From positions 1 to 64,000 of the forward strand of contig NZ_JAQTOD010000002.1 of assembly GCF_028713515.1 (NCBI RefSeq): a stretch of 64,000 nt of DNA, given 5' to 3'. This document shows, in pieces, positions 16,161-27,118 of the stretch (positions within the stretch are counted from its first letter, which is position 1; each line of letters begins with the position of its first letter). The notes below the pieces were generated by a model. It made no database searches, had not been told where the DNA came from, and saw only the letters and a list, made by a program, of their open reading frames with translations. Both the position numbers and the translations under genes were made by a program. Source of the DNA: Sulfurimonas sp. Lineage in GTDB: Bacteria; Campylobacterota; Campylobacteria; Campylobacterales; Sulfurimonadaceae.

Positions 16161-16475
16161 TTATTCATCACCAGAAGAGGCTACTAAATAAGAACGAACT
16201 TTATCTTGTTTTAGTTTTTTATATAGTTTAAATTTAGCTTGTCTCAACTCTTCATCACCACAAGAGAACTCCTCTTTCATCTTTAAATCATCAACTCCAG
16301 CGCTATCCATTGCAAAAAGTCTTAACTCTTTTTTTGTAAGTTTTGCTTTTAGTGCGCCATAGAGTTCTTTATCATCTTCTATAAGATTTAGACTATCAAC
16401 TTTGCAGTATTTCACTAGCATCTCTCTAAAACTATTTTCGCTATTGTACTGCTTCCAGACACTGTTTTCTAACAT
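16161..16475 (-). CDS. Conserved hypothetical protein next to serB
   Basis: 104 aa, soluble and charged. The segment KLTKKELRLFAMDSAGVDDL followed by EELRQAKFKLYKKLKQDKVR looks like helix-turn-helix helices as in sigma-factor region 4, but this is weak. It starts on the base where serB ends (1-bp overlap at 16475), so it is in one operon with it. No firm family. Confidence 0.6.
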   Translation of the reverse strand: MLENSVWKQYNSENSFREMLVKYCKVDSLNLIEDDKELYGALKAKLTKKELRLFAMDSAGVDDLKMKEEFSCGDEELRQAKFKLYKKLKQDKVRSYLVASSGDE

Positions 16476-17098
16476 TATATTTTCTCCAATATTTGTTTTA
16501 AATCTTTAGTTTCTACAACTATATTTGCCTCTTTCTTGAGAATCTCTCTTGCGCAAAAAGCAACCCTTGTCCCTGCATGTGCAAACATTGAGAGATCATT
16601 CGCACCATCTCCACACACCAAAGTTTCATCCTCTTTTATCCCTAGCATATTTTGAAGTCTAACCAGCATGTCACCTTTAGAGTAGTTAAACATCATATCC
16701 CCACCGACAAGACCTGTTAATTTTCCATTTTTATGGTGAAGCACATTTGAAAAATCTGCATCATAACCAAGTATATTTTTTGCATAACCAGTAGCAGTTC
16801 TAAAACCGCCGCTGAAACAGACGACTTTCATGCCTCGCTTTTTCAATTCAGCAATTGTCTCTTTTGCGCCATTCATATATGGAAGATTGTGAGAGATTTT
16901 TTCAACGATAGTGTAGTCAAGCCCTTTAAGCAACCCTACTCTTTGTTGAAGTGATTCAAAAAAATCAAGCTCTCCACTCATAGCAGCTTCAGTAATTTTA
17001 CTAACCTCTTCACCAAGTCCGAGCTCGTTTGCAAAAAAATCTATTGTTTCACCATCCATAAGCGTAGAATCAAAATCAAATACAGCTAGTTTCAACAT
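16475..17098 (-). CDS. serB: Phosphoserine phosphatase (HAD superfamily)
   Basis: 207 aa. HAD motif I is FDFDSTLMDGETID (residues 7-20, nucleophile Asp), motif II is CFSGGF (about 94-99), motif III the Lys region around YSKGDML, and motif IV GDGANDLSMFAHAG (about 163-176). It hydrolyses phosphoserine to serine, the last step of serine synthesis. It lacks the N-terminal ACT domain of E. coli SerB, as is usual in this phylum. The small charged protein gene downstream overlaps it by 1 bp. Confidence 0.9.
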   Translation of the reverse strand: MLKLAVFDFDSTLMDGETIDFFANELGLGEEVSKITEAAMSGELDFFESLQQRVGLLKGLDYTIVEKISHNLPYMNGAKETIAELKKRGMKVVCFSGGFRTATGYAKNILGYDADFSNVLHHKNGKLTGLVGGDMMFNYSKGDMLVRLQNMLGIKEDETLVCGDGANDLSMFAHAGTRVAFCAREILKKEANIVVETKDLKQILEKI

Positions 17099-17206
17099 CT
17101 ATGTCACTCTCTTTTGTTATAATGCCGCAATTATACCAGCGCTAACTAAAAAGATGATTTTTTTATTTATTATTGCGCTTAACAATACCACGACGCAGGA
17201 TACTTT

Positions 17207-18118
17207 TTGTTTGACGAAATTATAAATAAATTAAAGACTGGCACATTCATTACCCTTGAGACAACTCCAGGTCACTCTCCTGTTTTTTCTTCTACAATAG
17301 ACAAAATAGCCGAACTGGGTCTTGATAAGCTCGTAGATGGCTTTACGACAACCGATAATCCGTTAGCAAAACTAAAATACAACTCCCTCTTTGCAGCAAA
17401 GATGCTACAAGATAGATTTGGCAAACCAGCAATTGCAACAATGAGCATGAGAGACAGAAACAAGATTGCTCTTCAGTCTGATCTTCTGGGTGCAAACGAG
17501 GTGGATATTAGAGCCATTTTAGCCCTCACTGGGGATCCTGCTACAATTTCTGACCAACCAAATACAAAAGGTATTTTTGAGGGCGATAGCTCAATGCTTC
17601 TTGATATCATCTCGTGCTTTAATAGCGGGATTGACTATGCAGGCAAGCCTCTGGGTGCTAAACCAAAACAGCTCTACCCTTTTGCCGTTATAAACTCTTA
17701 CGCAAAAAACCCAAAAACACTACAAAAAAAGATGCAAAAAAAGATAAAACATGGGGCAATTGGGATAATCACACAACCCGTTTATAATGCAGAGAATGCT
17801 AAATTACTTATAGAACTTATGGAAGCGGCAAACAGAGATTGTTGCAAAGAGAAGAAAAGCGCTGAACTTATCTTGGGAATTTTTCCTATAACAAAACTCA
17901 GAACTGCTCAATTTCTATCTTCCCATGTGCCAGGCATAAATGTTCCAAACAGTTGGCTAGAAGCGCTAAGAGTTGCTAATGAAATTGGAGCAGAAGAGGA
18001 GTATAGAGTTGGATTTGAACTCAGTAAAAAGCTTTTTAATGACATAAAAGAGATTCATCCAAAGATTCATCTAATGACTGCAAATCAGTTTCAGATAGCT
18101 AAAAACATATTGGTTTAA
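17207..18118 (+). CDS. MetF-family methylenetetrahydrofolate reductase
   Basis: 303 aa, the normal MTHFR length. Residues match the family: LETTPGHSPVF near the start, RDRNKIALQSDLLGANEVD (folate/FAD region), ILALTGDPA (about 106-114) and a C-terminal barrel with GIITQPVYN and GIFPITKLRTAQFL. It would reduce 5,10-methylene-THF to 5-methyl-THF for methionine synthesis. The start is taken at the TTG at 17207, with GCAGGA seven bases upstream; no ATG in frame is better. A TATAAT at 17116 may be its promoter. Related domains also occur in other corrinoid or one-carbon systems, so I give no gene symbol. Confidence 0.8.
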   Translation: MFDEIINKLKTGTFITLETTPGHSPVFSSTIDKIAELGLDKLVDGFTTTDNPLAKLKYNSLFAAKMLQDRFGKPAIATMSMRDRNKIALQSDLLGANEVDIRAILALTGDPATISDQPNTKGIFEGDSSMLLDIISCFNSGIDYAGKPLGAKPKQLYPFAVINSYAKNPKTLQKKMQKKIKHGAIGIITQPVYNAENAKLLIELMEAANRDCCKEKKSAELILGIFPITKLRTAQFLSSHVPGINVPNSWLEALRVANEIGAEEEYRVGFELSKKLFNDIKEIHPKIHLMTANQFQIAKNILV

Positions 18119-20702: not shown

Positions 20703-21953
20703 ATGATTGATTTAAAATTATTACAAAAAGAGTTCGATAGTATTAGCGCAAAATTAATGCGCAAAGGTGTTAATGCAGAGCTTATTGAAAATTTAAAAAC
20801 AAAAAATGAAGAACTTAGAGTTGCTAAGATAAATTTTGAAACTCTGCAAGCTTTACAAAACAGTATGAGTAAAGAGTTTGGCATCTACATAAGGGAGAAG
20901 AGAGATGTTAGTGAGCTGAAGGCTAAAGTTGATGCGAACAAAATCAACATAACAGAGGCGCTAGAGATTCAAAGATTCAAGCAAGAAGAGCTAGAAGCAG
21001 TTGCTATGTCTATCCCAAATATCCCTGATGACGAAGTTCCAGACGGCAAAGACGAGAGTGAAAATGTGGAGATAAAAAAAGTTTTATCGCCTAGAGAGTT
21101 TTCATTCTCTGCAAAAGAGCATTGGGAGTTAGCTGAGAAAAATGGATGGATAGATTTTGAGAGAGGTGTAAAACTAGCAACTAGCCGTTTTAGTGTCTCT
21201 TTTGGAATGGGTGCGAAACTTGAACGAGCACTTATAAACTTTATGTTAAATTTCAACTCAAAAAGAGGCTTTCAAGAAGTTAGCGTTCCAGTGATTGTAA
21301 ACAGAGCTGCACTTGAGGGCACTGGACAACTTCCAAAGTTTGAAGATGACCTTTACAAGATAGAAAATCAAGAGCTGTTTTTGATCCCAACAGCCGAAGT
21401 TCCTGTTACAAATCTTTATCAAGATGAGATTCTAAACGAAGCTGAGCTTCCAATCAAAATGACAGCTTACACTCCATGCTTTAGAAAAGAAGCAGGCGCT
21501 GCTGGTCGTGATACAAGAGGAATGATTAGGCAACATCAATTTCACAAAGTTGAACTTGTCGCCATCACAAAGCCTGATGATAGTGATAAAGTTTTTGATG
21601 AAATGGTGAGCTGTGCTTCTGATCTGCTACTAGCACTAGAGCTTCCTCACCGCTTGGTAACACTCTGCTGCGGTGATCTAGGCTTTGGCGCGGCTAAAAC
21701 TGTTGATATAGAAGTATGGCTCCCTGGACAAAACTGCTATAGAGAGATTAGTTCAATCTCAAACACTAGAGAGTTTCAAGCTAGACGAGCAAAAATAAGA
21801 TTTAAAGAGATAGACAAAAACTCTTTTGTTCACACCTTAAATGGCTCATCTTTGGCAGTTGGCAGAACTTTGGTTGCAATTATGGAAAACTGTCAAAACG
21901 AAGATGGAAGCATAACTATTCCTAAGGCTCTTGAGCCATACCTAAACTACTAA
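20703..21953 (+). CDS. serS: Seryl-tRNA synthetase
   Basis: 416 aa, full length. The N-terminal 110 residues form the coiled-coil tRNA-binding arm. Class II catalytic motifs follow: motif 2 region [20 protein letters not shown] (about 260-279), which also holds the serine pocket, and motif 3 near [14 protein letters not shown] (about 380-393). It charges tRNA-Ser and tRNA-Sec. It has its own promoter region (TATATTTTGATATAAT near 20658-20673). Confidence 0.95.
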
Positions 21954-21969
21954 TTTTAGTAGTTTAGGT
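21940..21969. terminator. Stem-loop at the end of serS
   Basis: A perfect 12-bp stem (ACCTAAACTACT pairing with AGTAGTTTAGGT) with a 6-base loop overlaps the serS stop codon. It lies between the convergent serS and arsM-like genes and probably ends transcription from one or both sides, although no long T-run follows. Confidence 0.5.
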
Positions 21970-21984
21970 AAGCAAACACCACCC

Positions 21985-23340
21985 TTATCTTTTCTTTATA
22001 ATAAAATATATATATTTCTGTTCACTCTGCTTAGGCGTTATATGGAGGTACTCTTCACTATCTATTAGCTCCAATTCATCCGTTAATTCAGACAACATGC
22101 CTGAGTGATTGTACTGGACTATATCAAGGCCCGCACAGCTAAGAGGCCCATCTACTCTAAAAGTACTGATTATTGCGACTCCTTTATCTTTTAGAGAATC
22201 ACTTAATACTTCAAAATATTTAATTCTATCTTTTTTGTTTAGTAAAAAATGAAACACAGCTCTATCATGCCAAATATCAACTTTCTTATCTGTTTTAAAA
22301 TTTAAAATATCATTACATTCAAATTTTATATCGTCACTATCTATTCTTGATTGTACTATATCAAGCGAAGTTTTAGATGTATCAAGTAGAGTGATATTTT
22401 TGTATCCATCATTGATTAAATTATCCACAAGGTGTGAAGCTCCACAACCTACATCAATTATATTGGCATCACTCTTTGTATATTTTTTGATAAGTTCTAA
22501 AGATTTTTGCGGTGAAGTTTGATGCCAAAGCACTTGTGTATAATCCGCACTTTTAAATATGTTATCCCAATGCTCTCTTCTTAACTCTTGTAATGGAATT
22601 TTAGTAGCCATAAAAGTAGCCCCTTTAGTTGTCTCTGCTGTTGTGTAGTGAGTATGCCCCGTGCAAGCCACATCTTTAAATCCAGCCTTTTGGATAAGCT
22701 CTATGAGCTCACTCTCTCTCATAGTTCCAGCTACACAGTTTGCCCAATCTTTTTTGCTGGTATCGCAACAAGAGTTCTCTTCGACTAAACAACAGTTCTC
22801 TTCATCCATCGAAATATCTATCATATCAGCAAAAAATATTTTACCATTTGGCTTTAGTACGCGATATATTTCAGCAAAAACTGACTCTTTACAAGATGTA
22901 AGATTTATAGCACCATTTGATATAACTACATCTACGCTTTCATCTTCCAGATTAATATCATCAAAATTACTCTGCAATATTTTTACATTCTCGGCATTAA
23001 TCTCTTTTGCATGGAGAGTGGCGATTTCTACCATTTTTGGAGTAATATCAACACCAAAAACTTTTCCTCTTTCTCCAACTAAAAGCGAAGCAATAAGCAA
23101 ATCAACACCAGCACCACAACCAAGATCTAAAACAGTATCACCTTTTTTAATCTCTGCATTTGTAAAAGGATTTCCAACAGCTGCACAAAATTCCCAAGCT
23201 TTGCTCGGAATTTTATCTATCCACTCCTGCTTGTATCCATGCGCTAATGCATTTTCCAAACCCTTATCCCAGCCAAAATCTCTATTTGGACTTTGAGCCA
23301 ACTCTGTATATAGTTCTATTATTTTAGTATAATCAGCCAT
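21985..23340 (-). CDS. ArsM-like methyltransferase fused to a second SAM methyltransferase domain
   Basis: 451 aa with two class I SAM-binding domains. Domain 1 (about 1-250) has VLDLGCGAGVDLLIA, GKVFGVDITPKMVEIA, VVISNGAINL and DWANCVAGTMRE, matching arsenite methyltransferases. Its Cys-rich stretch around residues 178-192 (CCLVEENSCCDTS) is where As(III)-binding cysteines lie in ArsM. Domain 2 (about 262-451) has IIDVGCGASHLVDNL, HDRAVFHFLLNK and resembles TehB/thiopurine-type small methyltransferases. Such a tandem is unusual; the usual ArsM has one domain. It would methylate arsenite or another metalloid. It is the last gene of the operon at 21985-25058, 1 bp after the MerT-like gene. Confidence 0.7.
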   Translation of the reverse strand: MADYTKIIELYTELAQSPNRDFGWDKGLENALAHGYKQEWIDKIPSKAWEFCAAVGNPFTNAEIKKGDTVLDLGCGAGVDLLIASLLVGERGKVFGVDITPKMVEIATLHAKEINAENVKILQSNFDDINLEDESVDVVISNGAINLTSCKESVFAEIYRVLKPNGKIFFADMIDISMDEENCCLVEENSCCDTSKKDWANCVAGTMRESELIELIQKAGFKDVACTGHTHYTTAETTKGATFMATKIPLQELRREHWDNIFKSADYTQVLWHQTSPQKSLELIKKYTKSDANIIDVGCGASHLVDNLINDGYKNITLLDTSKTSLDIVQSRIDSDDIKFECNDILNFKTDKKVDIWHDRAVFHFLLNKKDRIKYFEVLSDSLKDKGVAIISTFRVDGPLSCAGLDIVQYNHSGMLSELTDELELIDSEEYLHITPKQSEQKYIYFIIKKR

Positions 23341-23341
23341 A

Positions 23342-24220
23342 TTACTCTTTTATCTTTTCACATGGATAACCAGCTAATTTCCAAGCATCAAATCCACCTT
23401 TTAAGCTATACACATGCTTATAACCAAACTCTTTAAGTGTTGAAGCAGCAAAAAGACTTACTAATCCAAATTTTCCATAAACAACAATAACTGCATTTTT
23501 ATCTTGCAACTCCTTAAAAGCACTAAAGTATAATTTTCCATATGTTATTGAGTAACTCTCCATCGCATCAATCCTATAGCCATCTTTATGACTTGGTTCT
23601 CTTATATCAACAAGTGTAACATCATCGCCATTATCCAACATTTTTAAAAGTACCGGTGGTGATATCTGCTCAACTTGAGCTTGTTTTTTTGCCATTAAAG
23701 CATCTAAAGTTTTATAACCTGTGCCGCTACATGCAACTTGTCTGTATGGTGTAGGGTCTGTGGTTTCTTTTTGTATATATTTTAATATAGGTAAAGAGCC
23801 AATATCTGCTTCTTCATTTTGCCTCTTATCTTCTTGCGAGTCTGTTGTTGTTGAGCTACATGCTCCAGCTGAACAACTTTGCGCACTTGCCGCTGAAGTA
23901 AAAAACCTATCTCCCCATAAAGGAAAACTAAGCATAGCTGTCGTGAAAATAGTTACCATAGCTAAAAATATTTTACTTGAAAAGAAACCAATTTCATCAC
24001 AATTACACCCTATCTCTTTGCTTGGTCTTAGCTTGTCATACCAAGCATAAATCAGCACTGCTATTGTAAATCCTACTAAATAGTTATGATATGGTGCTAA
24101 CCACGAAAAAGATGAGACTAAAGAGCTAGAACCTGCCAGTACTGCTAAAACTGGTGTCATACAACATAAAGAAGCTGCAATCGTTGCAGCAATAACTGTT
24201 ATTATATTTTTATTTATCAT
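23342..24220 (-). CDS. MerT-like membrane domain fused to a rhodanese domain lacking its active-site cysteine
   Basis: 292 aa. Residues 1-120 have three membrane segments and the MerT-type vicinal cysteines in SLCCMTPVLAVLAG; a second Cys pair, IGCNCDEIG, sits on the cytoplasmic loop. A periplasmic linker is rich in Cys/Ser (SCSAGACSSTTT). Residues 180-292 are a rhodanese domain (LVDIREPSH, then YGKFGLVSLFAASTL and KGGFDAWKLAGYP). In active rhodaneses the loop has a Cys at the place where this protein has Gly in VYGKFG, so sulfur transfer is probably lost. It may carry a metal or metalloid ion across the membrane and bind substrate through the degenerate domain. Confidence 0.7.
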   Translation of the reverse strand: MINKNIITVIAATIAASLCCMTPVLAVLAGSSSLVSSFSWLAPYHNYLVGFTIAVLIYAWYDKLRPSKEIGCNCDEIGFFSSKIFLAMVTIFTTAMLSFPLWGDRFFTSAASAQSCSAGACSSTTTDSQEDKRQNEEADIGSLPILKYIQKETTDPTPYRQVACSGTGYKTLDALMAKKQAQVEQISPPVLLKMLDNGDDVTLVDIREPSHKDGYRIDAMESYSITYGKLYFSAFKELQDKNAVIVVYGKFGLVSLFAASTLKEFGYKHVYSLKGGFDAWKLAGYPCEKIKE

Positions 24221-24234
24221 AGATATTTTTTCTT

Positions 24235-24588
24235 TTAAAAAGTGAGTACTTTATCGCTAACTATTACCCAATCGGCTAAGATTTGCATAGATGAAGATAC
24301 TTTTTCATCAAAATATGGTTCATTTTTAAAAAGTCCACAGCGTGCGTTACAAGTGCCACATGCCTGAAGATTTATACCATTAACATACATTTTTTTTAGC
24401 ATTTCAACTAAATCATAATCATAACCCTCTGGTTTAGTTGTTTTATTACGAGCTAAATCAACAGCATCATTCATTAAAAATATATTTACACTTTCGCCAC
24501 TTTTGTAAAGTGTTTTAGCTAAACGCAACGCATTCCATGTAACATCCGTTCCATCATAAGGCTGATGGTTTAAGATTATTGTTGTCAT
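24235..24588 (-). CDS. DsrE/DsrF-family sulfur-relay protein
   Basis: 117 aa, soluble. It has the DsrE fold: an N-terminal ILNHQPYDGTDVTWNALRLA, VNIFLMNDAVDLA, and a Cys-containing motif GINLQACGTCNARCGL near residues 73-88 holding four possible ligands or sulfur acceptors. DsrE-like proteins pass persulfide sulfur between partners such as rhodaneses. It overlaps the rhodanese gene upstream by 4 bp and precedes the MerT-like gene by 14 bp, so it is likely to be produced together with them. Confidence 0.8.
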   Translation of the reverse strand: MTTIILNHQPYDGTDVTWNALRLAKTLYKSGESVNIFLMNDAVDLARNKTTKPEGYDYDLVEMLKKMYVNGINLQACGTCNARCGLFKNEPYFDEKVSSSMQILADWVIVSDKVLTF

Positions 24589-25058
24589 CTACTTTTCCTC
24601 TCTAATGTTGTCATACCTAGACCTGTTCCAATAGAGTAACCAGCTTCTGCCCACCCTTTAAGTCCACCTTTTAAAGTAGTTGCATTTTTATAACCCATCT
24701 CTCTTAACACTTGTGCAGCAAGTGCTCCACGACCACCTTCACGACAATATGTGACAATAATCACACTCTTGTCTTGGATGAGCTCATTAACCTTCCACTC
24801 TAAATTTCCACGAGTGATTGAGATAAACCGCTCTTTATTTAACTCATTTGAAGGGATACTTCCTTCTGCTCTTTGTTCACTCTCCCTTACATCAAGAATA
24901 ACAACATCTTCCTCTTCATCAAGTAGAGATTTAAGTTTTTTTGGTGAAATTTCACCAACCTCTTGTTGTGCTTTTTTTATTAAATCCATTTTACTCATAG
25001 ACTCAGCCATCAACATTGTTGTAAACAACAGCGCAACTATCAGTATTAAACTCCTCAT
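24585..25058 (-). CDS. Exported rhodanese-like sulfurtransferase
   Basis: 157 aa. A signal peptide (about 1-17, LLFTTMLMAES) precedes a single rhodanese domain: VVILDVRESEQRAEG (about 51-65), the active-site loop TYCREGGRGALAAQ with the catalytic Cys, and KGGLKGWAEAGY. Unlike the fused domain two genes downstream, this one keeps the active Cys. It is the first gene of the four-gene operon and is probably in the periplasm. Confidence 0.85.
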   Translation of the reverse strand: MRSLILIVALLFTTMLMAESMSKMDLIKKAQQEVGEISPKKLKSLLDEEEDVVILDVRESEQRAEGSIPSNELNKERFISITRGNLEWKVNELIQDKSVIIVTYCREGGRGALAAQVLREMGYKNATTLKGGLKGWAEAGYSIGTGLGMTTLERKSR

Positions 25059-25071
25059 ACATTTCCTTTGT

Positions 25072-25153
25072 ATTTAGCTAATTTGCTAAATTGCTTTTAG
25101 AAAGTATATAGACTGTCTTCTTAATACAAAGTTAATTTACTAATTTGCTAAAT
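25072..25153. promoter_or_regulatory. Operator repeats upstream of the rhodanese-DsrE-MerT-ArsM operon
   Basis: A perfect inverted repeat, ATTTAGC-TAATTT-GCTAAAT, lies at 25072-25091, 14 bp before the rhodanese start. Its right part, CTAATTTGCTAAAT (25078-25091), recurs directly at 25140-25153. The two sites bracket the region where the operon promoter should be, and are good candidates for binding by the ArsR-family protein encoded at 25347. Confidence 0.6.
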
Positions 25154-25179
25154 AGGTCTGTTTTAGTTATTATTTGATG

Positions 25180-25309
25180 TTACGCACTAAAGCGAACAAG
25201 TCCGTTTTAGTGGGAGAGACTACAGTCCCTTCCAGCCCCCTAAAGCTACGAAAAACGAGTTTTCGAGAATTACAAGGTGTTTTACACTCTTTTTTACAAA
25301 AGTGCGTAA
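25180..25309. repeat. 130-bp element with terminal inverted repeats, MITE-like
   Basis: Bounded by TTACGCACT (25180-25188) and AGTGCGTAA (25301-25309). A 10-bp direct repeat, GTTATTATTT, flanks it at 25166-25175 and 25315-25324, offset by 4-5 bp from the ends. No coding sequence. The right half (25241-25309) recurs with changes at 35951-36023. It contains two small hairpins, one followed by a T-run. Confidence 0.55.
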
Positions 25310-25346
25310 TATTGGTTATTATTTTACAAAATACAAAAGGCTATAA

Positions 25347-25715
25347 ATGTTAGATATGAACGATAAGATAAAAATATTTAAAGCATTAGGCAACGAGACA
25401 AGATTTAAAATATTTAAAAATATATTTAGCGGTGGGTATGCCTGCTCTATTGATAACTCCAAGCCAAAAGATGACATTATCGCGCAGGCTACTTGTGTGA
25501 CAAGCATTGCTGAGCAGTTTGATTTTGCACTTCCTACAATTTCACGACATCTTAAAGATATGAGAGATGCCAAAATCATCACAATGACAAAAAGTAAAAA
25601 TAAAATCTATATCGAGCCAAATATAGAGACCATAAAAGAGATAGCGGAGTGCTTTGAAACTTTAATAAGAGAGTATGAAAATGGTGCCATCTACCAGTAC
25701 GACAACACCAAATAA
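25347..25715 (+). CDS. ArsR-family repressor of the rhodanese-ArsM operon
   Basis: 122 aa. The winged HTH has DKIKIFKALGNETRFKIFK, recognition helix LPTISRHLKDMRDAKII and wing SKNKIYIEPN. It has only two Cys, in GGYACSIDN and ATCVTSIAEQF, both in the stretch where ArsR-type sensors place ligands, but not the CVC motif of the repressor at 3435. So it probably senses a soft metal(loid) or a reactive sulfur species with a two-Cys site. It is divergent from the rhodanese operon; a MITE-like element now separates the genes. Confidence 0.85.
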   Translation: MLDMNDKIKIFKALGNETRFKIFKNIFSGGYACSIDNSKPKDDIIAQATCVTSIAEQFDFALPTISRHLKDMRDAKIITMTKSKNKIYIEPNIETIKEIAECFETLIREYENGAIYQYDNTK

Positions 25716-25751
25716 GAGGCGATTTTGCTTCTGCTTAGTTATGTTTTGCCT

Positions 25752-26684
25752 CTAAGCCCCAATACTATCCCTCTTTATCTTTCTTTTCTTATCCGATTCA
25801 CTAGATTTTGGAGTTACATTCTTTTCAATATAGTCCATAATTTTCTTAGCTATATTGATTTTTGTAGATTTTTCAATCCCCTCCAACCCTGGAGATGAGT
25901 TTACTTCCATCACAAGAGAACCTCTTGCTGAAGGAATCATATCTACACCACAAATACCAAGTCCCATAGCTTTTGCGGCAGCAAGGGCAGTTGCTCTCTC
26001 TTTTTTTGTAAGAGTGTGAGCCACTGCACGACCCCCTTGATGCAAGTTAGACCTAAAGTCGCCCTCAACTCCTTGTCTTTTCATAGCACCAATGATTTTA
26101 CCACCAACAATAAAGACTCTAATATCTGCTCCTGCTGCCTCTTCTATATACTCCTGAACAAGAAGATTTACATCCATTCCATAAAACGCATCAAGAACTG
26201 ATTTGGCAGCTTTTTCCGTATCAACCAAAACAACTCCAACACCTTGAGTTCCCTCTAAGATTTTTAAAACAAGAGGAGTTCCACCACTTAACTCTATAAC
26301 ATCTTTTGAACTAGATTTGTTTGATGCAAACACTGTTCTTGGCATATCTATGCCATGCTTAGAGAGTATCTGCAAACTTCTAAGCTTATCTCTGCTTCTT
26401 GCAATTGCTAGATTTCCAGAGGTACTAAAAACATCCATCATCTCAAAGTGTCGAACCATTGCCGTACCATAAAAAGTCTTACTAGCACCGATTCTTGGAA
26501 TAATTGCATCTGGTATAGGTAACTCTTTACCTTGATAATTAACTTTTAGCTCCCCTTTTACAATCTCTATTGAGCATCTCAAGTAATCAACAACCTTAAC
26601 TTCCCACCCTTTATTCTCCGCCTCTTCAACCAATCGCATAGTTGAGTAGAGTCCTTTGTTTCTAGACAATATATAAACTCTCAT
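25752..26684 (-). CDS. rimK: RimK-type ATP-grasp glutamate ligase
   Basis: 310 aa. ATP-grasp fold: IPRIGAS, the Gly-rich LKILEGTQGVGVVLVD (about 140-155), LLVQEYIEEAAGADIRVFIV, GRAVAHTLT and the metal-binding VMEVNSSPGLEGIE (about 257-270). RimK adds glutamates to the C-terminus of ribosomal protein S6 in E. coli. It overlaps the upstream protease-like gene by 4 bp, the RimB-RimK pairing known from other bacteria in which RimB removes the chain. Confidence 0.85.
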   Translation of the reverse strand: MRVYILSRNKGLYSTMRLVEEAENKGWEVKVVDYLRCSIEIVKGELKVNYQGKELPIPDAIIPRIGASKTFYGTAMVRHFEMMDVFSTSGNLAIARSRDKLRSLQILSKHGIDMPRTVFASNKSSSKDVIELSGGTPLVLKILEGTQGVGVVLVDTEKAAKSVLDAFYGMDVNLLVQEYIEEAAGADIRVFIVGGKIIGAMKRQGVEGDFRSNLHQGGRAVAHTLTKKERATALAAAKAMGLGICGVDMIPSARGSLVMEVNSSPGLEGIEKSTKINIAKKIMDYIEKNVTPKSSESDKKRKIKRDSIGA

Positions 26685-27118
26685 ATTTCCTCTTTTTTGT
26701 TATCGTCTACTATATACTCTTGCTCTACATCAACTAAAAATCTACCACTTAAAAACTTTTTACCTATCAGCATTTGGTACTTCATATCCGAACGATTGCC
26801 TAATGATATTACAGTTTTATATCTCTTTCCACCAAACTCTACTGCTATTTTGATTGATGGTCTATATTGAACCTCTCCATTAGAGCTTCTAATCTTTTTC
26901 ATCTTATATAGCGGCATCTTTATCACCTCTTGGGTAATAAATTTATTTTTTTCATCCAATATTTTAAAATAGACAAAATTATCATTATCAACTGAAATTT
27001 CATCACAATGCAGAGAGTTTGAGTCGGCCCCTGTATCAATTTTTGCTTTAATATTGTGTAAATTTAAATCCACGATTGAAATAAACTCTTTTCTGCCTAT
27101 GATTTTTTTTATGTTCAT
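26681..27118 (-). CDS. rimB: RimB-like retropepsin-type protease
   Basis: 145 aa. It belongs to the family once called putative ATP-dependent zinc protease. The retropepsin-like active site is KIDTGADSNSLHC (about residues 26-38) with the Asp-Thr-Gly triad; a conserved LIGKKFLSGRFLVD follows near the end. RimB proteins act with RimK in adding and trimming poly-glutamate on S6. The reading frame overlaps rimK by 4 bp. Confidence 0.8.
   Translation of the reverse strand: MNIKKIIGRKEFISIVDLNLHNIKAKIDTGADSNSLHCDEISVDNDNFVYFKILDEKNKFITQEVIKMPLYKMKKIRSSNGEVQYRPSIKIAVEFGGKRYKTVISLGNRSDMKYQMLIGKKFLSGRFLVDVEQEYIVDDNKKEEI

Follow-up and report, generated by a model that had tools for sequence, protein, structure and literature searches.

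A conserved regulon joining sulfurtransferases to methyltransferases in Sulfurimonas, with a tentative link to arsenic

What would a bacterium do with an operon that combines sulfur-transfer proteins, a MerT-like membrane protein and a double methyltransferase, and that lies beside a divergent gene for an ArsR-family regulator? The question is raised by a locus of Sulfurimonas sp. (assembly GCF_028713515.1, genome of 1,996,776 bp) within positions 1–64,000 of contig NZ_JAQTOD010000002.1; this stretch of 64,000 nucleotides, analysed as a whole, is referred to here as the window. The locus belongs to a real, conserved regulon. Our preferred reading, which is held tentatively, is that of an inducible operon handling a thiophilic toxicant, most probably arsenic (or antimony) species of sulfidic water. 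The genes and predicted operators are as follows.

24585–25058, minus strand: secreted rhodanese, 157 residues (Pfam Rhodanese, 1.5e-15)
24235–24588, minus strand: DsrE-family protein, YchN-like, 117 residues (Pfam DsrE, 1.7e-14)
23342–24220, minus strand: MerT-like membrane domain with an inactive rhodanese domain (MerT-rhodanese), 292 residues (Pfam MerT and Rhodanese)
21985–23340, minus strand: two-domain class I S-adenosylmethionine (SAM) methyltransferase (MT), 451 residues (two Pfam methyltransferase domains)
25347–25715, plus strand: divergent ArsR-family regulator, 122 residues (Pfam HTH_5, 26.2 bits, cut-off 22)
25072–25091: perfect dyad, predicted operator, ATTTAGC-N6-GCTAAAT, 20 bp, 33 bp upstream of the rhodanese start codon
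25134–25153: second, degenerate predicted operator with three mismatches; relatives carry ATTTAGCAATTTAGACAATT at the same place

The original prediction, made from the letters of this DNA, had placed four packed genes and a divergent ArsR here; the same open reading frame (ORF) coordinates were recovered, and Pfam backs every domain. The operon runs on the minus strand in the order rhodanese, DsrE, MerT-rhodanese and MT, with gaps of −4, 14 and 1 bp.

Operator and regulon

A palindrome had also been placed at 25072–25153. The promoter dyad is real, and the interval holds two sites, one perfect and one degenerate, rather than one. The exact dyad is present in a single copy in the genome and exceeds chance expectation, with 16 exact copies in 135 congeneric genomes and none for the reversed control. 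Twelve of the 16 mark the regulon: eleven stand at promoters of ArsR, rhodanese, MerT, DsbD or MT genes, usually 30–46 bp upstream of the first start codon of the operon, and one precedes a porin gene. The latter (L182, G024:C105, 4855–4874) lies 15 bp before a porin of alginate-export type that is homologous to a regulon porin of another genome (G066; L066 5556–6881). The copies in G078, G099 and G017 were rejected as operators, since they fall inside ORFs and are taken as chance, and one (G104) is at a contig end. A second site type, ATTTAGCAATTTAGACAATTAAC, is common to many regulon promoters; it also precedes the MT and MerT-rhodanese genes of L072/L073, with no ArsR copy within the 14 kb read. 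Repression by ArsR would act through the dyad.

The gene set is conserved outside this genome in a modular form and recurs in other families of Campylobacterota. Within the genus, 23 of the 135 genomes have MT homologues, of which about 16 are full-length; others come from Sulfuricurvum and from a second family of the order. A search of the phylum with ArsR only, which is unbiased by MT, was positive in 28 of 397 genomes. At 16 of the 19 ArsR places that were read, a rhodanese, MerT-rhodanese or DsrE gene lies within 6 kb; a secreted tandem rhodanese is encoded at one more, and seven of the 19 include a methyltransferase. As its membrane partner the set has MerT-rhodanese or else DsbD together with a thioredoxin-like protein, and a porin and a secreted DsrE are often present too. 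All five families occur together in three genomes: the window and G064 share the exact five-gene order (with MT cut by a contig end in the latter), and in G356 the families are split over two adjacent operons.

Three kinds of methyltransferase partner with the set, namely the fused MT, its C-terminal (C) domain alone, and an unrelated enzyme of about 200 residues. Because methyltransferases of three families (four with that of an Azonexus plasmid described below) have joined the same sulfurtransferases, methylation is suggested to be the real end step of the pathway. The enzyme of about 200 residues (EIGVGSGxFAxPL...GVEPS) is seen with a three-Cys ArsR and DsrE in other genera (L122 3328–3921, L125 1188–1769, L126 5339–5944 and L063 1330–1959). 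Occurrence of the regulon is patchy and a plasmid copy exists, which suits a resistance trait.

The original prediction knew of no described pathway with this set, and none appears in the open literature searched (subscription papers lay mostly outside the search), where queries for an ArsR/rhodanese/DsrE/methyltransferase operon and for a MerT-rhodanese fusion likewise returned nothing relevant. The regulon, the fusion and the double methyltransferase with altered cysteines thus appear to be undescribed, the component families being known.

Around the operon, an Rfam search of 21500–26500 gave zero RNA matches, PADLOC reported at the locus only generic methyltransferase and helix-turn-helix resemblance with no defence-system family of note, and a promoter scan of the region yielded no more than shuffled sequences. 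Just past the ArsR gene, a RimK-type ATP-grasp ligase overlaps its PF05618 'zinc protease' partner gene (window 25752–27118). Also in the vicinity (window 16475–18118) are serB and metF (methyl-folate synthesis), which in another family adjoin an ArsR/C-domain MT pair (L119 7699–9318); this may be chance synteny.

The proteins and their conserved cysteines

The secreted rhodanese has a hydrophobic N-terminus with the signal sequence MRSLILIVALLFTTMLMA. Its active-site loop is CREGGRG and the active Cys105 is kept in 23 of 23 homologues, which upholds the view of this free rhodanese as active. Both rhodaneses of the operon match structure 1qxn, the Wolinella Sud polysulfide transferase, which is among the closest solved structures to the secreted protein (E 5.7e-14). 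The DsrE protein matches the YchN structure 1jx7 (E 4.4e-10); in its motif Cys77-xx-Cys80-xxx-Cys84, C77 and C84 are present in 19 of 19 sequences and C80 in 18.

The MerT Pfam domain of the third protein only just passes (33.1 bits, cut-off 32.9). The vicinal C19–C20 and the C72-x-C74 pair, which lies in a predicted inner loop, are invariant, the former in all eight homologues. At the active-Cys position of the fused rhodanese domain all eight have Gly or Ser; a dead rhodanese joined to a MerT-like domain with vicinal cysteines, as had been described, is therefore borne out. Charge distribution and hydropathy suggest a topology in which the N-terminus and the Cys-pair loop are inside and the rhodanese domain is outside.

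The regulator belongs to the winged-helix ArsR fold: HTH_5 is over its cut-off and ArsR structures head the fold matches of the model, and the top one, level with others at Z 13.3, is an ArsR that responds to As(III). Instead of the two cysteines first ascribed to it, three are conserved among 33 homologues: C33 and C50 in all and C102 in 32. A trigonal site for As(III) or Sb(III) would be in keeping with three such residues.

MT consists of an N-terminal (N) domain (residues 1 to about 245) and a 'WHDRAVFHFL' C domain (about 250–451). The AlphaFold model has a mean predicted local distance difference test score of 81.6, with low confidence at 180–204, corresponding to the Cys-rich loop. The description of an 'ArsM-like' enzyme fused to a second methyltransferase holds as regards the two domains and the homology of the first, to which 5evj matches at 2.4e-21 and for which ArsM structures (4fr0, 6cx6) are among the best Foldseek matches. 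It does not extend to the arsenic-binding triad, two of whose three cysteines are gone. Residues 6–251 resemble ArsM-type selenoproteins and ArsM strongly but below the NCBIfam cut-offs, with 175.6 bits for the curated ArsM model PRK11873/NF008823 (cut-off 263). Judged on its sequence, the N domain is ArsM-like yet not classifiable as ArsM. All 16 full-length homologues keep C52 and C202; C150, C183 and C192 are close to invariant, and two homologues have lost C226. The C domain is of a widespread family in which HW, WxDRA..HFL and a Cys ahead of x-x-L do not vary, and it matches TehB weakly (4e-6).

Several relatives carry MT in other forms. A canonical ArsM (GLGCGNP, ISNCVINL, YGACISGA; L059 3757–4524), which served as the in-house reference for comparing the Cys triad, is encoded about 1.6 kb from a solitary, operator-less fused MT. 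In G510 the two halves of MT are separate genes about 139 kb apart (L184 5901–6653, L185 5317–5943). At L057 (G089:C32, 1501–2520) a degraded second copy of MT loses its frame after about 338 codons, with the exact operator still upstream; the MerT part at L057 is present without the rhodanese domain. Selenocysteine was considered for this copy and rejected, the in-frame TGA aligning with Trp258 and being followed by frame decay, as in a pseudogene.

Substrate and mechanism

Arsenic is the best guess because homologues of the operon genes adjoin arsB, arsR, arsC or permease genes in three relatives. In Sulfuricurvum (G458, L183) MT is directly downstream of arsB, beside arsR(CxC)-arsC-permease; in G352 (L188) a C-domain MT is near arsB; and in another Sulfurimonas (G095, L077) an ArsR/MerT-rhodanese/MT C-domain operon is followed by arsR-arsC-permease. 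The permease beside MT homologues is of ArsP/SaoE type. On a Legionella plasmid, a DsrE 58% identical to that of the operon adjoins an Acr3-related 'arsenic resistance protein'. A further, unrelated secreted rhodanese occurs in three of the ten Sulfurimonas arsB loci read (L202 7458–7901, L203 5228–5683, L199 1–219), and is an independent rhodanese–arsenic link. The metalloid role first proposed is supported by these neighbours as far as a link to arsenic goes; plain arsenite methylation is unlikely, as two of the three arsenic-binding cysteines are missing.

Gene set, domains, conserved residues, operator and recurrence are established; the substrate, the direction of transport and the order of steps we infer as follows. 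ArsR would keep the promoter shut through the two operators until an inducer binds at the three-Cys site and releases it. The MerT-type protein, with its periplasmic rhodanese domain serving for binding only, may then take up thiol- or sulfide-bound species; in relatives with DsbD, redox support by that protein would replace MerT entry. Moving sulfur, or the element bound to it, to and from thiols would be the task of the secreted rhodanese and of the cytoplasmic DsrE with its CxxCxxxC motif. MT would methylate the product with SAM, a rearranged set of thiols (C52, C202 and the Cys-rich loop around C183–C192) serving in place of the ArsM triad, and its second domain would transfer one more methyl group or act on a thiol partner. 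That the sulfur relay thiolates a metalloid is conjecture. A new type of detoxification or conversion pathway, with sulfurtransferases passing a sulfide-bound metalloid such as thioarsenite to a fused double methyltransferase whose metalloid-binding thiols differ from those of ArsM, under novel three-Cys ArsR sensing, is rather improbable.

Several observations weigh against arsenic. Of the CmArsM triad, C72 corresponds to V55 and C174 to G143 in MT (both invariant in the 16 full-length homologues), and only C224 is kept, as C202; in CmArsM, C174A and C224A each abolish both methylation steps (PMC3877260). Of 79 good genomes of the genus, 71 carry arsB, which is controlled by another ArsR, of CxC type (CVCD), so that the three-Cys ArsR may respond to a ligand different from As(III). 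In the 135 congeneric genomes arsB was found to lack an exact operator, the operon in most of its copies has no ars genes nearby, and DsbD plus thioredoxin stands in for MerT-rhodanese in several relatives. Association with ars genes at genome level was also tried and gives no discrimination (arsB in 104 of 135 genomes of the genus, acr3 in none).

The main rival, which fits almost as well as arsenic and is itself doubtful, is a response to reactive sulfur. ArsR would sense sulfane sulfur or polysulfide, the envelope proteins (porins, secreted rhodanese, DsrE, MerT/DsbD) would traffic zero-valent sulfur, and the methyltransferases would make volatile methylated sulfur from sulfide or thiols. 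The likeness of the operon rhodaneses to Sud speaks for it, as do the rhodanese and DsrE as the most constant partners of ArsR (at the 16 of 19 ArsR-ascertained places), the recurrence of DsbD, and the Azonexus plasmid with its ArsR-rhodanese fusion, DsrE, secreted rhodanese, methyltransferase and nearby TauE/TSUP gene. The regulon repeatedly includes porins, whether of OprD, alginate-export or another type, and one of them has an exact operator to itself; in Sulfurovum, elemental sulfur induces OprD-like porins (PMC10045233), and bacterial S-methyltransferases act on H2S and methanethiol (PMC12904073). However, the regulon is patchy though all hosts live on sulfur, its ArsR has a third conserved Cys and is far under the BigR model (NF040642, 16.4 bits, cut-off 155), MT adjoins arsB in Sulfuricurvum, and a MerT-type module is present.

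Resistance to or processing of another thiophilic element, Hg(II) or oxyanions of selenium or tellurium, with methylation to volatile products, is unlikely. The vicinal cysteines and inner CxC of the MerT domain would fit it, and plasmid-borne homologues of the C domain have ArsR and heavy-metal P-type ATPases (or DsbD/CcdA) as neighbours; the Geobacter ext selenite/tellurite cluster has a rhodanese and a porin (PMC5877670). The weak TehB match of the C domain would also count in its favour. Yet this match is a generic methyltransferase resemblance, MerT is optional within the regulon, and genes for extracellular cytochromes like those of ext were not recognised. That these are adjacent accessory genes without a common function is highly improbable: gene content does differ among relatives, and all five gene families together were seen in three genomes only, but across several families of the phylum these genes keep returning with one kind of ArsR and one operator, MT and porin genes away from ArsR are preceded by the operator too, and this conservation already contradicts such a view.

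If arsenic is the substrate, thioarsenic chemistry, dominant in sulfidic water, would be tied to a methylating enzyme that lacks the ArsM triad and that ArsM-keyed surveys would overlook or misread. If it is reactive sulfur, sulfur-oxidising Campylobacterota would possess a sulfur-responsive regulon that produces methylated sulfur gases. Operator, regulator and enzyme are defined to base level, and either substrate reading is testable.

Comparison with known systems

The operon ArsR differs from type-1 As(III) regulators (R773/CadC-like) in that the CxC of helix alpha3 is absent, the sequence there being ATC50VTS. With the sulfane-sulfur repressors SqrR, BigR and SoxR it shares the fold, operons with sulfurtransferases and, by location only, conserved cysteines ahead of the recognition helices and in alpha5; the third Cys and the low BigR score set it apart. 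The C33–C102 spacing is 69 residues versus 66 in sHdrR (PMC12423496), a comparison blurred by an insertion between them and by the third conserved Cys.

Like the mercuric transporters MerT and MerTP, the membrane fusion has vicinal cysteines in the first transmembrane helix and another pair of cysteines in the loop preceding the last, but an inactive rhodanese domain takes the place of the HMA/MerP part of MerTP. Its NCBIfam scores are below cut-off for both MerT (31.9 versus 150) and MerTP (121.5 versus 180, E 3.1e-35). Neither merA nor merR is among the five genes of the locus, no genome search aimed at mer genes having been made.

MT shares with ArsM/AS3MT a homologous N domain, the SAM motif and the C224-equivalent Cys202, and differs in lacking the C-terminal part of ArsM, which is replaced by the second methyltransferase domain. 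The best model scores of the N domain are for ArsM-type selenoprotein families (NF041537, NF041536, NF047649), all far under the curated cut-offs. These proteins have selenocysteine within a UxxG motif (PMC13188914), which by our own placement in the sequence matches the CxxG of C202; MT has Cys in its place and a different C-terminal fusion partner. The H2S and methanethiol methyltransferases MddH and MddM1 are alike by description only, as small class I SAM methyltransferases of UbiE/UbiG type (PMC12904073).

Two further systems resemble the set as a whole. The Tso selenoprotein system also combines an ArsR/SmtB regulator with a rhodanese/DsbD protein, and the regulon DsbD matches TsoB, but the scores are low (24.5 bits for TsoR, cut-off 115; about 22 bits for TsoB, cut-off 805). 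The plasmid operon of the betaproteobacterium Azonexus hydrophilus (L208 3836–6420), which additionally encodes a small secreted protein, presents the same functional set in another phylum, with a rhodanese domain borne by ArsR, a methyltransferase of another subfamily and no MerT.

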